Origin: a virus
Length of the DNA: 28,185 bases
Reading direction: 5' to 3' (one strand)
Virus record (IMG/VR): IMGVR_UViG_3300044700_000157
Location: 1-28,185 of that record
This document shows positions 9,001 to 25,408 of the stretch, in pieces (the stretch's first letter is position 1; each line of letters begins with the position of its first letter). The position numbers were made by a program, and so were the translations under genes. The notes below the pieces were generated by a model. The model had not been told where the DNA came from. It ran no database searches and saw only the letters and a program-made list of their open reading frames with translations.

Positions 9001-10168
9001 TTTAGCAGAACCAATCCCAGCAACTGGAAGGACTGCAGTTGAGTTCCCAAATATTAATCCTAACAAAATTAGAATTAAGATGGTCAACGGGGATCTTGTT
9101 GCAGAGAAATTAGACTATGAATACATAATCAGAATTGGAACTGAGTGGTTCTATCCAGATAGTAAGAGTGGCGCAGTTGATCCAGTCTACGGTGTAAGAC
9201 TTCCAAAGTCATATCGTGATCCTGTCTCTGGTAATGTTGAGCAGTTCTTTGGTGGAGGAGATCTTACAACTCATGGATCTCTTAATATTACAAGCGGAAA
9301 TATCAGAGTTTATGGAACTGATGGAACAACATTAGTATTCAACGTAACTAATGATGACGGACACCCTGGTGATGGTGCAATTGTTGACCCAGTTACGGGT
9401 AGAAATGGTATGTTCCTTAAGGGATTTGCCAACATATTCGGCAATCTTCAAGTTTATAATGAGCAGTGCCAGGAGAATGGATACTGTGATAATAAACTTG
9501 TATTCAAAGTTGATAGGGGAACTGGTAAGGTTGATATGGGCGAGTCCCTGTATATTCAGGGACAAGTATTTGAAACACAGTCTCCTTCAACTAAGATCTT
9601 ACACGTTGATAACCTTGGATCTGCTGGTGTTGGTGGAACGACTGGACCTAGAGATCTTATCCTGTATCAGGATGGTTCAATTGATGCATTTGGTATTACA
9701 CAATACTTCACTGCAAACGGTGGTAGAAGATGGACCTATGTTGCACAGTCTGCAACTGGAATTGGTCAAACTCAGTCAAATCCACTGCAACCAAATAACA
9801 ACTATCTATTGAACCTAACCTCTGGTGGTAACATGGTTCTATATCTACCAACTAATGCTGTTACTGGTGATATAATTAGATTTGTAGAATTGACTGGAAA
9901 TCTAAGTTACAATACAAATCTTGTTATTAGAGCATTGAGAATTGCCAACGCACCAGTTGGAATTCAGGGAGACTTTAATGGTTCCAAACTAACATCTGGT
10001 ACTGGAGCTAGTCTTCTTTCCCAGGCATGGGATAGTGGTGAACTAATTGTTCAGACACGAAATGCTGGTTTTGGACTTCTATATGTTGGATCAACCGATG
10101 CTCCTAATGATCCTCTTGCTTCAGAAATTCCTTCAAACCTACGTGGTTGGTGGTTAGTAGAACTATAA
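2..10168 (+). CDS. Giant repetitive virion structural / tail-fibre-type protein (5' end outside window)
   Basis: The frame is open from base 2 through the first internal ATG (311), and the translated repeats run across that point, so the gene starts upstream and at least 3,388 residues are visible. The N-terminal part holds two to three copies of a roughly 44-residue unit ending in YPDFY-x-PGD, then about five copies of a 115-150-residue unit built around C-x-RD-x-GY-x-x-DA, GGN, DLTIT and NCANVRS. The middle is rich in beta-prone N/T/G/V sequence. The last third has fibre-like modules (NLDVVGNAYISG, RVGIN, GNLTVTG, DNKLVFKVDRGTG). There is no signal peptide or membrane segment in the visible part. 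It lies directly before three collar-domain fibre genes. T4-like cyanophages carry such multi-kilobase virion genes of unresolved role; a long tail fibre, baseplate or whisker component is my inference, and no T4 gene number can be assigned. Confidence 0.8.
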   Translation, partial: NRVLANREFILDAALAEIGVYHPDFYIPGDTQSNAQSRFADAYRLIRRNSKEIADRALAKIAVDYPDFYFPGDAQTTADSRFYDSYRLIQQNKTEIVSTAWTNMVTLYPGVASTETKCKRDLGYFVDAISLDLFIRGNEYSYRFAAEYFTNATTPISNGLVGEVTESIYAFNQAKTLMKSAITNQLTVKDLTITADPATGSNTNANSCANVRSAIDTLTGIVTTIINDGNLNSLPLQINKGSAPAGMKKCARDIGYFIDAVAVDVFTGGNKHTRTFVQQYFNGNTPISNGLVGETAQSNTAFNEAAEYMRQAVVNALYYKDLTITPDPSPSSGAVGNQNTNNCANVRSAITTLAGIATAAITAGNLNSLPAENVGTFLTGEVKCRRDIGHIVDAVAQDLWFGGNEYTIAATKEYFTNATTLLTNGVAGETGPSITAFRRAQDLMNRAINNQYYVRDLTITLDNTEDPAIFSDIHSNVFLSIMDNKKFIAKEAYQRMKLAYPSYVPQTGNTEQDCLDDVYDVLEQIAYDIKFGGNAKTYDAANVYVTNTFNGQPVQTFIDPERDEAAKVFLEAKKVAIAIINNVVVTPTAGNTETQVFDFTQTHDWDADENLPKCGSAIAAADTLFGIIIQAIGNDGGVGNLTGITRTAPAQPTTYAIGNCSDVLATVDTLISIVVDSLYAGNLNVLPPLSNGEWDCANVRSTIENLFDIVTDAIGGGTLAGLPLANAGDFIANAKQSKCYRDVSYIVDAVVNDLRLGGNVNSIQAGEAYYVGNNLTYIDGEKTETIDAWNYVGDLAIAAMRNFDVLAVNCVTNSGSALVNVADTRGITIGMRVVEYANTPTPYVNGLLQNGAVPIYTNIPKDTFVKRIVSNTTIELGVANSRFTSGNTVNALQTSTTTKLYFTFEKGAWANTLPQRVTVGPANTNPDVIQDTTAFTPSAPTQRECASTANAIITLIGNITTIINSGLGTVALQEQTVNTALFASRATVFTIDTTGYGSTNAHNFETGTPVRLVPRPRFDITTGKYVEVDKRLVRLPKGFEPNRTYYVIAPGRRTQPADYSNTTYFNGSDQTKLMLATSKENAAAGIYIYASETSGIDANVEIDLYQFVLDDKYDLHNYRCNLTNTVNAGIETDVSHIFDRPSASTTPHRVFFRAVEGGQLPLVSQTYQSDPTVAVTNPQNANVGRINPQVEFFARYQNDKVFTIHKTHADAINNVNPIQFFAGQAGLKFDVYANKRRSPMRFDPSFTDAKTSAGKWYVQCKDVVTGGIPNDIAKNIFTRINEDDYSDRPRTTDMWYERLDDTREADDRTYKIRYVIPKYIENARDPINGFVLKTRTDDTRKLVPQKIVLKPVTGSVYGARFENPVQAGEYIGYTAAQFTSNDLNSDAAYDPFKKDLTNQGIDYRAFAKFSSGIQATIQSGRYVADALDANIKYLELTVYDHTVDSQNFPGLRNELFTTVKITSPQGGDFVANKTQNILSNKVFFTGASSGSAYIHAYYSVGGDHYLIIKGIAGGKLEYSEYANVRFTQGTVFADMLEDQDMGKSLPLKTLIRKGYPEYYWRQNGANVYTITPGDKIQDDAGIEYYVDSVEDAGIIEDTFYIFATETLQRRIAGQQDGIYYLTCLRGNVSPFPTGAGVTNNFKNYKFSQPVGRLYPLNYRNDPLWFQKNGTSNEEKNYYAALIDPPETFSAADNYTHGLVTVNDYKNSVTRETVGDLIKQSAFADNTYSGTVVKYGKTLNASIQAQEGNATSGSEDRIIPISGSSTVVTDQRYYVELRRPSIARAGNHTFEYLGFGPGNYSTGLPARQEVVLTPDQDFYAQAKKQDAGIVFYTGINSQGDLYIGNRRINAITGEETFIDKATLADDGDENDVIGGLVTTFDTPVTFNENFTVVGGDGTLVTNFESPVVISVQDNDLIQERDALIIRSNVSSVDPVTQLQQDEGLDRTSFRPVSKGDIKLSKNRIQSAVFAFNSRGNGQEYLIQTHSVVGVASNITPNQLPLVSNNGTALSVSQFVTYGGVLPTTGDILLKGSEVGKAGSLGWILANYYQSIANNSIENVIFDGSNVVKVTFRSSVTGLTIACQDIGITSASQIRFKNYPDPNLNLTWVIYSPNGDAFSPTKPYIYLQILAQRPALVQSWADLITQATNANNPLPTIEFSNANWKEVGVIGAEALRTETETIGNYKLGINTVARSPHSAHTNAFIDAATTDPRANLDVVGNAYISGKKTTNYLQHTNFADRNKNAIADAFIVGGDSGSPTDYSTLRVDTRTVAITEASRGNNLGRVGINTDETVADKQLNRALVVVGDSRFTEDARFERDIEIYTDSGTDTAEVRTGITTGSFNLLNGSTSTQFTGQLSVTAGVLSKANSKGLRFGNNLSYIEIGDAYTDDQFIFIGNNSDHSNISIGDISDASSRISKVQIGGAYGNNSSNSYVTFGTRRVNFAGDVVFGANKLQGGDRLNPEMVISVGSEAGIVQFFTGNTQTLDFATNASEINIGGQGGQTKVRNNLVVDSSARFNSNVILCGGFASFSFVGNRAQLGSTSFSHSSGILGQNTFNSNIDIVNVFVVSVVNQNAPTPAELTAGFNRIDTAGAGVWGGNSGVSNFQAAVPGAGPEGATLPALTGLEYYVPMKYKPTPYFEAGDYVIIDSAISGSGGSATHPEIVRITEDGLQGAETAPYYLKVRRQPLGTFTTIKTNHPDTTNVWKVNVAFDATWITQGIDASGSQDNVYLAEFGGQLTANDYVIIDRADSNSDGIADQGEVFKVASLLEQVAKKFSIKNGCDTQAEETVFEVNSTNGSVSLGDPGNTNTSTFIYGNLTVTGQCGGAGTADNTKLTFKNELYTTAEIDICTGNAFFGSNYATVFVVGAFYGSTAAAHSTTDPVYVYRRDPFTVQAAGPLTTILANQQTGSVTAATSNIPIATNLSAFAKGDLVAIVDGVSKVEVIQITDDPYTDLNGNKLLPTSTNSTYPSGGRGREGTVAQAWNSGAVVVKIQKDPRTTTLAEPIPATGRTAVEFPNINPNKIRIKMVNGDLVAEKLDYEYIIRIGTEWFYPDSKSGAVDPVYGVRLPKSYRDPVSGNVEQFFGGGDLTTHGSLNITSGNIRVYGTDGTTLVFNVTNDDGHPGDGAIVDPVTGRNGMFLKGFANIFGNLQVYNEQCQENGYCDNKLVFKVDRGTGKVDMGESLYIQGQVFETQSPSTKILHVDNLGSAGVGGTTGPRDLILYQDGSIDAFGITQYFTANGGRRWTYVAQSATGIGQTQSNPLQPNNNYLLNLTSGGNMVLYLPTNAVTGDIIRFVELTGNLSYNTNLVIRALRIANAPVGIQGDFNGSKLTSGTGASLLSQAWDSGELIVQTRNAGFGLLYVGSTDAPNDPLASEIPSNLRGWWLVEL
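62..325 (+). repeat. Tandem ~44-codon repeat units in the giant gene
   Basis: Units containing DAYRLIRRN or DSYRLIQQN followed by an alanine-rich helix and YPDFY-x-PGD recur 132 bases apart (YHPDFYIPGD encoded from 62, YPDFYFPGD from 194). A degenerate third copy (TLYPGV) lies near 317. The array probably continues to the left of the window. Confidence 0.7.
350..2430 (+). repeat. About five diverged copies of a 115-150-residue repeat in the giant gene
   Basis: Copies begin near 350, 745, 1147, 1540 (diverged) and 2214. Each starts with a C-x-RD-x-GY/SY-x-x-DA-like segment and a GGN turn. Copies 1 and 2 also share SNGLVGE, AFN, DLTIT-x-DP, NCANVRSAI-like and GNLNSLP segments. An identical 29-base run occurs at 461-489 and 854-882, 393 bases (131 codons) apart, which suggests fairly recent duplication or gene conversion. 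Copy 4 lacks the SNGLVGE part. Confidence 0.75.
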
Positions 10169-19668: not shown

Positions 19669-19690
19669 ATGCCTCAACGATGTTGAGCAT
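19669..19690 (+). promoter_or_regulatory. Inverted repeat at the predicted transcript 5' end
   Basis: CTCAAC-GAT-GTTGAG (19673-19687), flanked by ATG and CAT that extend the pairing across one bulged C. It would form a hairpin at the 5' end of the mRNA and would enclose the ATG at 19680, so it could be an operator, a 5' stabilising hairpin or a translational control. Confidence 0.45.
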
Positions 19691-20798
19691 ACCGCACAAT
19701 TACTTCCAAAAAATTATGTTTAAGAAAGTTGTAGTCGATCAATCGCAAGATTTCAACCTCTTGTATCTTGAGATTGACCCAGAAGATGGACCTTCGTATC
19801 CTCTTCTAGAATATGTAGATTTTGCTGTTCGTCAGGTTGGTGAGATCACCCCCACAGAAGCAAACTATCCTCGTAAGTCTGAGGTAATCCAAAACAAACT
19901 TGATGGTCTTGTTGCCTCTACTTCTGGTTACCGTTGGCTCTCTCGTTCTTGGCCTATTAGTGTCTTTATCTCTGAAGATAAAGAAGAGCAATTCGATCAC
20001 CGCCACCTTCTTCTTGCTTTGAAGGAGAATGATTGGCGTACTGCACCCGTGGCTCGTTATCGTCGTAAGGTTACTGGTGACGCTTTGCTTGATAGTCTTT
20101 CTGACAGTTCAGTTATGACTTTGAGCGGTATTTTTGTGAATGCTACTGACGGTGGCAACCCTCAAAACTGTTCTAGTGCAGATTTTCTGATCCTCTCTCG
20201 TGTTATGGAGGATGAAGGTATCCCCCGCACCAAGAAAAATCTAGAAAAGTTGTTTTCTGTGTCTGGTATCTATGAGCACTTCCCTTTAAAGGGGCATAAA
20301 TCTACTATCGGCACCATTCGTAACAAAATCCTCAGCAACGAGAAACCTTCTCAGCGAGTGTTTAACACTTCCAAGGTTGAGATCAAAGATTGGTACGAGA
20401 AAAACAAGTTGTTTGGTGAGAACAACTACTCTAGTGTTGATGGTGCCCGTACTCGCCATAAAGTTCTTGATAACAGTTTCACATATCGTTATGCTAACGA
20501 TATTCTGAAGTGGGCATTTGAAGCTGTTTTGGCTGGTGAAACTGTCCGTGTTAGTTGCGCTAGTAAAGCAACTTGTGAACATGAGATTGAGGCTGAGCGT
20601 CAAGAGATTGTCGATGCTATTAACGACATTTTGAATAGCACTATCAACTGGTATATCTCTAAAGTTGAGGGTATGCTTAATGTTGGTTCTCTCTTTAGCT
20701 TCAAACTTCCTAAGGTCGATGTTAATTCTCTTCCTTTGGAACTCTACTGGATCCCCCAGATTGAAGGTGAAGAAGAAGCGATCAGGGTTTCTTTCTGA
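19680..20798 (+). CDS. Unknown protein with a possible ParB-like segment
   Basis: 372 residues from the first ATG. A second ATG at 19716 (MFKKVVVDQ) gives 360 residues and is also plausible; neither has a Shine-Dalgarno. I prefer the first because most promoter-proximal ATGs here are about 28 bases from the -10 (23 for this one). Residues 92-127 (WPISVFISED...QFDHRHLLLALKENDW...APVARYR) resemble the ParB/sulfiredoxin-like core, in which D-x-HR-x-x-A-like residues precede a G/W-x-x-x-PV strand. The rest has VMEDEGIPRTKKNLEKLF and a charged helical C terminus. No helix-turn-helix is evident. A DNA-binding or nucleotide-dependent role is a tentative inference supported by the helicase downstream. 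Codon use shifts here to CGT. Confidence 0.6.
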   Translation: MLSIPHNYFQKIMFKKVVVDQSQDFNLLYLEIDPEDGPSYPLLEYVDFAVRQVGEITPTEANYPRKSEVIQNKLDGLVASTSGYRWLSRSWPISVFISEDKEEQFDHRHLLLALKENDWRTAPVARYRRKVTGDALLDSLSDSSVMTLSGIFVNATDGGNPQNCSSADFLILSRVMEDEGIPRTKKNLEKLFSVSGIYEHFPLKGHKSTIGTIRNKILSNEKPSQRVFNTSKVEIKDWYEKNKLFGENNYSSVDGARTRHKVLDNSFTYRYANDILKWAFEAVLAGETVRVSCASKATCEHEIEAERQEIVDAINDILNSTINWYISKVEGMLNVGSLFSFKLPKVDVNSLPLELYWIPQIEGEEEAIRVSF

Positions 20799-23106: not shown

Positions 23107-23165
23107 AGAAGTGGCACGGGGGGCTTCGAATCCCCCTTTTTCATGCCCTATAATTACAAGGTAAT
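23100..23165 (+). promoter_or_regulatory. Dyad-type promoter of the nuclease-methylase operon (P23149)
   Basis: Upstream repeat CAGTT-GAAG-AAGTG-GCAC (23100-23117), consensus -10 TATAAT (23149-23154), start-site dyad ATTAC-AAG-GTAAT (23153-23165), ATG 28 bases after the start of the -10. From the -10 the next 26 bases are identical to those at 25392. Confidence 0.7.
23118..23141 (+). terminator. Intrinsic terminator
   Basis: G-rich arm (23118-23123), loop CTTCGAAT, CCCCC (23132-23136) and five T's. A second small hairpin CCCC-GTCTTT-GGGG lies just upstream at 23085-23098. It ends the helicase operon and, as at 20820, sits between the upstream repeat and the -10 of the next promoter. Confidence 0.75.
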
Positions 23166-23176
23166 CAATCAAACAC

Positions 23177-23752
23177 ATGTCTTACTTAGAGCGTCATCTG
23201 CTTCCTCTCATTCTCTCCATCGACCCCACACAGGTAGAGAGTTATATCGATGCCTGCCTTGGGTGGGAACCTGAGAATAGCGTTCAGAGCATCCGAATTC
23301 AGTTTGGCAATAAGATTGAAGAGTTCTGGAATCAAGTTATCAGCGATGCAAAGAACGCTGAAAATTTGATTGCAGAGAACAACATGATCATGGTTGGTAA
23401 CGATGAACGCCAACTTGATCATCTGTTTAAGTATAGCGTAGGTGAGAACGTGTACAAACTCTACCTTGAGAGCAAGTGTAATCTCAACTTTGACAGTGAG
23501 AAGGACAAAGCATCTAACGCTAAGATCAAAGCAGTTTTGGCGACTATGGAGGACGCTACTGGAGCATATTTCTGTCCTGTGGTAGATGCTGTTCCACATA
23601 AGTGGCAGGTCAAATATACCAACAAAGGTATGAATATCATTGGTGTCTCTGATATGATGAAGATGATTGACTGCCCATTTACCACTGAAGAATACTTCAC
23701 ATTTATGCGTGAAGTTGTTGGTCCTATTCTTAAGGAAAAGCGTTATGGTTAA
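23177..23752 (+). CDS. Probable PD-(D/E)XK nuclease, candidate type II restriction endonuclease
   Basis: 191 residues. The motif order matches PD-(D/E)XK endonucleases: GNKIEEFW (44-51, E48 on the first helix), an acidic residue in RQLDHLF (D81), then KLYLESK with E98-x-K100 after a 16-residue spacer. This is followed by CNLNFDSEK, a pattern I associate with some type II restriction enzymes. GAYFCPVV (129-136), IIGVSD (154-159) and EEYFTFMREV (171-180) fit the downstream strands and helix. The gene overlaps an adenine methylase gene by 8 bases and shares its promoter, the usual arrangement of restriction-modification pairs. It could instead be a phage nuclease for host DNA with no sequence specificity. 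The fold call is by eye; the cleavage site is unknown. Confidence 0.55.
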   Translation: MSYLERHLLPLILSIDPTQVESYIDACLGWEPENSVQSIRIQFGNKIEEFWNQVISDAKNAENLIAENNMIMVGNDERQLDHLFKYSVGENVYKLYLESKCNLNFDSEKDKASNAKIKAVLATMEDATGAYFCPVVDAVPHKWQVKYTNKGMNIIGVSDMMKMIDCPFTTEEYFTFMREVVGPILKEKRYG

Positions 23753-24590
23753 ACCTATTGTTAAGTATCAAGGTGGCAAATCTCGTGAGATCAAAACGAT
23801 CACGGGTTTGCTGCCTTCTTTTACTGGAAAGATTATTGAACCATTTTGTGGTGGTGCAGCTGTAGCATTCCATTACGGGAGACAGTCTATTCTGAGTGAT
23901 GTCAACCGAGATATTATCAATCTCTATCAAGTCGTTGCATCTGATAGATATGATGAGCTTCAACTCAAAGTGGATTATATCAAAACTTTGGAGCATGACG
24001 ATCTCGAAACTGAGTTCTATGCATCTAGAGAAGCGATCAATCAACCGTGGGATTGTGTAGATCCTCTGCAGAGGGCATTGTCGTACATTATCGTGCGGCA
24101 GTTGTGCTTCTCTGGCATGGAGAGGTACAATGCGAATGGAGAGTTCAACGTGCCATTTGGACACTACAAATCATTCTCATGTAATCTCTCGAAGGATCAC
24201 CATCAATTTCTTCTGAATTGTAAGATCTCTCATGCTTCATTTGAGCACTGCTTCAAAGATGTACGTGAGAATGATTTTATTTTTATTGATCCACCTTACC
24301 TAGATCGTCTTGGTTATACTACAGGAGATGGTGGTTCAAGTCTACACGAGAAGCTCTTGAGTTGTCTCAAGGCAACACCTGCTAAGTGGTTGATCATTCA
24401 CTCTGATCATGAGTTCTATCGTGATAGTTATGAAGACTATAACATCATGACCAAAGACTTCGTATACTCTCAACGATTTGGTAAGAACAAAAACCATTCT
24501 GGCGCCAAGGTACAGCATTTGTACATCACCAACTATCCAGTTCAACAACTGGCACACCCGACCGTGACCACCCACCTTGCTGCTGTATGA
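23745..24590 (+). CDS. dam: DNA adenine N6-methyltransferase, D12 class (Dam-type)
   Basis: I start at the ATG at 23745, with AAGGAA about 8 bases upstream and KYQGGK at residues 7-12 as expected for this family (281 residues). An in-frame upstream ATG at 23667 lies in the nuclease gene. Motif I is EPFCGGAAV (32-40), D52 in LSDVNRDIINLY contacts AdoMet, SGMERYNANGEFNVPFG (123-139) is the D12 signature, and the catalytic DPPY is at 182-185. The C terminus has FGKNKN and HLYITNYP. The family methylates adenine, most often in GATC; the actual target is not readable. It would protect phage DNA from the neighbouring nuclease or from host enzymes. Its 3' end contains the promoter of the next gene. 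Confidence 0.9.
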   Translation: MVKPIVKYQGGKSREIKTITGLLPSFTGKIIEPFCGGAAVAFHYGRQSILSDVNRDIINLYQVVASDRYDELQLKVDYIKTLEHDDLETEFYASREAINQPWDCVDPLQRALSYIIVRQLCFSGMERYNANGEFNVPFGHYKSFSCNLSKDHHQFLLNCKISHASFEHCFKDVRENDFIFIDPPYLDRLGYTTGDGGSSLHEKLLSCLKATPAKWLIIHSDHEFYRDSYEDYNIMTKDFVYSQRFGKNKNHSGAKVQHLYITNYPVQQLAHPTVTTHLAAV

Positions 24591-24603
24591 TTACAAAGTA
24601 ATC
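24538..24603 (+). promoter_or_regulatory. Dyad-type promoter (P24586)
   Basis: Upstream perfect inverted repeat CAGTT-CAAC-AACTG followed by GCAC (24538-24555), -10 TATGAT (24586-24591), start-site dyad GATTAC-AAA-GTAATC (24589-24603), ATG 29 bases after the start of the -10. Entirely within and just after the end of the methylase gene. Confidence 0.65.
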
Positions 24604-25388: not shown

Positions 25389-25408
25389 CCTTATAATTAC
25401 AAGGTAAT
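25344..25408 (+). promoter_or_regulatory. Dyad-type promoter of the RlpA operon (P25392)
   Basis: Upstream perfect inverted repeat CAGTT-GTGG-AACTG with TCTA following (25344-25361), consensus -10 TATAAT (25392-25397), start-site dyad ATTAC-AAG-GTAAT (25396-25408), ATG 28 bases after the start of the -10. Confidence 0.7.

Follow-up and report, generated by a model that had tools for sequence, protein, structure and literature searches.

Whether a lytic cyanophage can carry a complete restriction-modification (R-M) system of its own is the question raised by two overlapping genes, here called N and M, in a 28,185-base virus record. This whole stretch, referred to as the window, is assigned to a T4-like cyanophage on the basis of its tail proteins, tail-assembly chaperone, 2OG-Fe(II) oxygenase and UvsW-like helicase, and the closest named relatives of the N-M locus are the Synechococcus phages S-CAM8 and S-WAM2 (Kyanoviridae). 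A sequence-only reading of the locus had proposed N and M as a candidate phage-encoded R-M pair, and this proposal is supported after examination of structure, residue invariance and methylase linkage. We put at about 0.78 the probability that T4-like cyanophages encode, in N-M, a Type II-like R-M module whose nuclease family is phrog_26553. This reading is based on the predicted fold of N, an invariant set of active-site residues, a linkage to M that persists when genes are rearranged or partners exchanged, and signs of purifying selection. The locus is laid out as follows, in coordinates of the window.

23118-23141, + strand: strong terminator-like hairpin with a T run, closing the upstream gene and preceding N-M
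23149-23165, + strand: TATAATTACAAGGTAAT, exact match to a -10-like plus palindromic promoter/operator-like motif, 11 bases before N
23177-23752, + strand: N, open reading frame with ATG start, translated to 191 aa
23318-23320, + strand: E48 of N, catalytic candidate
23417-23419, + strand: D81 of N, catalytic candidate
23468-23470, + strand: E98 of N, catalytic candidate
23474-23476, + strand: K100 of N, catalytic candidate
23732-23736, + strand: AAGGA, Shine-Dalgarno-like sequence for M within the N gene, read from the sequence
23745-23752, + strand: overlap of the N and M reading frames, 8 bases
23745-24590, + strand: M, open reading frame with ATG start, 281 aa, assigned by Pfam and NCBIfam profiles

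Both the 191-aa frame and the D12 methylase frame are present as previously described, with an overlap of exactly 8 bases. The description of the pair as a terminator-isolated operon holds on one side, with the hairpin at 23118-23141 upstream, but no terminator was predicted downstream of M. A common transcript for N and M is likely from the arrangement of the two genes, and a single promoter serving both is plausible given that the TATAATTACAAGGTAAT motif lies just before N and recurs before the next gene; a sigma-70 site with both hexamers was not found just before N. Further exact copies of the TATAATTACAAGGTAAT pattern occur at 24586-24602 (before the next gene) and 25392-25408, and at two or fewer mismatches the window holds five matches against 1.24 expected, a number reached in 2 of 100 shuffles. 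The palindromic -10-like motif TATRATTACAARGTAAT that recurs before genes at these three places (23149-23165, 24586-24602 and 25392-25408) is a candidate phage promoter or operator. Elsewhere in the window, a 372-aa open reading frame (ORF) at 19680-20798, immediately upstream of the helicase gene, has a near-identical copy in another contig (L004, 503-1621) and gave no match in Pfam or PHROG.

M is a member of the Dam/DpnM-like D12-class (alpha) N6-adenine DNA methyltransferases as judged from its sequence, which includes the DPPY motif. The earlier assignment to the D12 class is confirmed by matches to Pfam MethyltransfD12 (PF02086, E=9.6e-40) and NCBIfam dam (TIGR00571, E=3.7e-50), both above the curated cut-offs. 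Its best sequence match in the PDB is the DpnII methyltransferase (2dpm, E=4.5e-25), aligned over nearly the whole length. Residues K7, R127, P137 and Y141 of M align with K9, R124, P134 and Y138, GATC-contact residues of EcoDam; in place of EcoDam N120 and L122, M has S123 and M125. The motifs K7, CFSGMERYN and [EQ]FNVP[FY]GHY are alike in nearly all readable M sequences (85 distinct members), whatever the partner gene. GATC is therefore the likely recognition site of M, since DpnII is the best PDB relative, the EcoDam contact positions are kept and the motifs are constant across partners. We infer the same site for N, the likelihood of GATC coming from M only.

The window contains many GATC sites, as the sequence-only reading had remarked. 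We counted 187, against 103 expected from base composition and 177 under a trinucleotide model; under the latter, the count points neither to avoidance nor to clear enrichment, and GATC avoidance was accordingly dropped as a test of specificity. Among other short palindromes, CCGG is absent from both positions 1-50000 of S-WAM2 (L167; 31 expected) and the window (16 expected), CGCG is absent from the window (21 expected), and GTAC is almost missing from the same S-WAM2 stretch (4 seen, 150 expected). These scarcities perhaps reflect avoidance of host restriction.

N belongs to phrog_26553 (E=5.2e-69 in a search of HMM libraries), a family listed there as of unknown function. Against characterised restriction endonuclease (REase) families, the HMM libraries gave nothing above cut-off. 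The NCBIfam HinfI profile (NF045831) scored 15.9 bits (E=0.0064) against a curated cut-off of 175 bits, and the match spans only residues 36-63, around E48, missing the D81/E98-K100 core; across the family it matched weakly in 10 of 34 members, with a best E of 7.7e-4 that is far below the curated cut-off in strength. Pfam RE_TdeIII matched one member weakly (E=0.016), and the Pfam "phage putative PDDEXK" profile gave a sub-threshold match to N (E=0.058). Sequence searches of PDB chains with N alone, or with profiles of 6 or 34 sequences, found no meaningful match, and no relative of N was found in a plasmid search or in 84,980 cellular genomes searched by pattern. The search of cellular genomes with M as query gave one N, on a short contig binned into an archaeal metagenome-assembled genome (MAG) (L170), although this contig looks like cyanophage. 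In the comparisons made, dN/dS of N was about 0.05-0.17, indicating strong purifying selection in every one of them, and since N is also conserved in many records, sequence evidence identifies it as a real gene. A separate nuclease type "B", erected for the proteins of L093, L137 and L140, was abandoned once iterated profiles joined all of them to the N family.

An AlphaFold2 model of N, built from an alignment of 34 sequences from the window and IMG/VR, has a mean pLDDT of 94.9 and a pTM of 0.89, with a helix at residues 36-57, strands up to 91-99, a helix at 107-123 and a strand at 128-132. The predicted structure contains a PD-(D/E)XK core in the alpha-beta-beta-beta-alpha-beta order, as the sequence-only reading anticipated. 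Foldseek matches in the PDB include Card1, Can2, XisH/FdxN-element proteins, EndoMS, BamHI, HindIII and EcoO109I; the scores are modest, with two matches at E<=0.001, and the mix is dominated by PD-(D/E)XK nucleases. Among viral models the best match is the S-CAM8 homologue, and a compact protein of Salmonella phage STML-198 (type D, below) follows in 31st place, weakly scored. The catalytic candidates E48, D81 and E98-x-K100 are at the positions claimed for them. Variation at E98 and K100, which would have spoken against the proposal, was looked for among homologues and none was seen in either alignment: G44, E48, Q79, D81, E98, K100, D106 and K109 are invariant in the 34 homologues, and the same eight residues are kept in a divergent set of 17 sequences with identity down to 16%. 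On this modelling, N is most likely a compact putative restriction endonuclease with a PD-(D/E)XK fold.

Among 2.9 million viral contigs scanned, 68 N loci were found. The fetched loci together encode 67 distinct N-family proteins, and for 56 of these the stretch that was fetched also includes M. In 46 of these 56 linked cases N overlaps M or lies within 40 bp of it, and the overlaps are often short, being 4 bp (ATGA type), 8 bp or 17 bp. The order is N-M in 47 linked pairs and M-N in nine. N and M thus show the linkage of REase and methyltransferase genes expected of a Type II R-M system.

The sequence-only reading had raised the prospect of N homologues occurring freely without a methylase; sought among the 67 distinct proteins, such homologues were absent from records long enough to judge. 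Eleven of the 67 lack a full M on the fetched stretch. One (L026) has a 52-aa fragment of M at the contig end, and the contigs of the other ten end either at N or no more than about 9.2 kb upstream of it. In two records the pair is split: M lies 8.3 kb upstream of N in the same orientation in G005, and about 9.5 kb upstream, again in the same orientation, in the 177-kb record G011, across the ends of that record if these join. Because the split pairs place M 8-10 kb upstream, beyond the ends of the remaining contigs, the missing M genes on those contigs are explicable, and the methylase-free loci were set aside as counter-examples. One short contig (L042; 6.4 kb) carries two tandem divergent copies of N at 1352-2752 and no M within its length.

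Many phage records match M, and most of the best 80 of 133 viral M loci, which we examined, carry N. In others the neighbouring position is taken by a different gene. An ORF of about 200 aa with the pattern FQDEIF..VDIL..INSKGKS (type C; L097, L143, L147, L149, L150, L151 and L252-L257) overlaps M in every contig in which it was found. It is unrelated to N and replaces it at least twice beside closely related M, the tree of M requiring at least two changes to type C, both nested among N-paired M. The type C proteins have a conserved NSK where (D/E)-x-K would be expected, and their sequences suggest a nuclease, possibly an unusual PD-(D/E)XK variant. Nuclease status for type C was not accepted as proven: its predicted structure is of low quality (pLDDT 60.5) and gave no fold matches, leaving the motif pattern and weak profile matches to BanI and MTES_1575.

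In the T4-like enterobacterial phages Klebsiella phage KP179 and Salmonella phage STML-198, a further compact ORF (type D) overlaps an M that is about 44-45% identical, the pair forming a separate starred branch on the M tree. At these loci (L077, 2385-3837; L078, 2387-3846) the type D ORF has a weak Hjc-like match and an IDVKSSG motif, and from sequence the type D ORF and its D12 methylase are a possible second R-M pair. An HNH nuclease gene stands directly before M in L095 (at 9497-9973) and also in L096, with no N in 107 and 159 kb, and 12 M rows that form one starred clade, all of them from short contigs, show no N. Two further M homologues were observed in passing: one adjoining an intact N (L083; G012:C1:168974-169768) contains one in-frame TGA and is possibly a decayed methylase, and a relative of M, 57% identical, on a Deltaproteobacteria MAG contig (L169) has no adjoining N-family gene.

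Different partners beside an unchanging methylase would be expected of an R-M module and are also compatible with nucleases homing into one locus, so we retain as improbable the alternative in which N is a homing endonuclease, free-standing and spreading through cleavage, at the M locus, of genomes that lack it. M would then be an ordinary orphan Dam-like methylase, and the linkage would be that of a selfish gene to its insertion site. The position beside M is taken by different nucleases and M also occurs without N; moreover, phages commonly carry homing nucleases, cyanophage examples such as F-CphI are described (PMC6083498), and one report has phage nuclease genes marking exchange boundaries (PMC10448857). 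Selfish insertion is nevertheless difficult to reconcile with a linkage kept in both gene orders and at 8-10 kb in two records, with many short overlaps typical of operons, and with the lack of partner-independent N loci in records long enough to judge. Homing genes often decay, in contrast to the strong purifying selection on N in all comparisons. We consider it very unlikely that N serves repair or recombination as an EndoMS- or resolvase-like nuclease, acting for example with the neighbouring UvsW-type helicase and found in one operon with M by circumstance. EndoMS is among the fold matches of N, and a helicase gene lies upstream of N-M in the window, S-CAM8 and S-WAM2, but in L153 and L166 a helicase adjoins M without N, N stays with M when the order changes, and unrelated ORFs replace N beside M. 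Very little probability is likewise left for a modification-dependent or inactive N beside an operative M that serves as an anti-restriction methylase. One survey finds orphan methylases to be much the most frequent kind of R-M gene that phages carry (PMC4176335); an inactive N, however, is at odds with the invariant active-site set and the low dN/dS, and a methyl-dependent N beside M would attack the phage's own DNA.

If N-M is an R-M module, M would protect the phage genome as it replicates by methylating adenine in a short site, probably GATC; N, as a compact PD-(D/E)XK endonuclease, would cut the same site when it is unmethylated. The main role would be cutting of the unmethylated chromosome of a marine Synechococcus-type host, leading to nucleotide recycling and host shut-off; as a side effect, unmethylated rival DNA may also be cut, as proposed for chlorovirus R-M enzymes. 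Alternatively, the pair may be an R-M system whose main use is to keep out superinfecting phages, satellites or plasmids; R-M is usually read in this way, the sequence-only reading suggested it, and nuclease exchange, which suggests an arms race, speaks for it. We consider exclusion unlikely as the main role, while giving it real weight: lytic infection is short, and a report on chloroviruses in which exclusion was tested found the REases not to be responsible (PMC7019647). We favour attack on host DNA as the likely role, on three grounds. Cyanomyoviruses are described as lacking denA, ndd and denB and as degrading host DNA less efficiently or by an undescribed method (PMC2984593). Apart from picocyanobacterial Group C1, almost all cyanobacteria are reported to have dmtA, a gene for a GATC methylase, and the same account calls this enzyme apparently ubiquitous, "excluding the picocyanobacteria" (PMC4390886). 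Finally, chlorovirus REases are stated to be packaged and are credited with host DNA degradation (PMC7019647).

Several known systems resemble N-M in part. The chlorovirus PBCV-1 systems CviAI (GATC) and CviAII (CATG) likewise combine a virus adenine methyltransferase with a nearby endonuclease gene in a lytic dsDNA virus, CviAI being described as a GATC methylation system (PMC7248222), but chlorovirus hosts are eukaryotic algae. The methyltransferase of DpnII/MboI-type GATC R-M systems resembles M and has the GATC-contact motifs in common with it, whereas N has no sequence match above cut-off to any named REase family, and its profile matches to the Type II REases HinfI and TdeIII are weak and far below the curated cut-off. 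F-CphI is similarly a small nuclease gene beside a conserved gene in T4-like cyanophages, but as described (PMC6083498, PMC2984593) it has an Endo VII catalytic motif, targets the psbA intron site and has no methylase partner. Phage orphan Dam methylases such as T4 Dam and P1 Dmt are of the D12 class like M; they have no dedicated adjoining nuclease, in contrast to most members of this M clade. Complete R-M systems are nearly absent from non-prophage phages in one survey, which counts nine in 831 phage genomes (PMC4176335). In searches of the open literature, we found no report of the N-M pair as an R-M system. Virus R-M genes are already known; new here is a nuclease family that has no name yet, within an exchangeable module carried by lytic cyanophages.

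The presence of the N-M pair in dozens of related viruses suggests that these viruses own a means of cutting DNA that lacks the methyl mark, perhaps the host chromosome. If the R-M reading is true, phrog_26553 would gain a name as a nuclease family, and new site-specific endonucleases may follow. More tentatively, and with somewhat less than even confidence, we suggest that an exchangeable R-M module, in which one GATC-type methylase is combined with interchangeable compact nucleases, is carried by many T4-like cyanophages and would fragment the unmethylated chromosomes of picocyanobacterial hosts. Such a module would correspond, in bacteriophages, to the R-M of chloroviruses and would supply the host-DNA-degradation function that cyanomyoviruses are missing. 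The N-M pair makes the question of how T4-like cyanophages break down host DNA directly testable in cultured S-CAM8 and S-WAM2.
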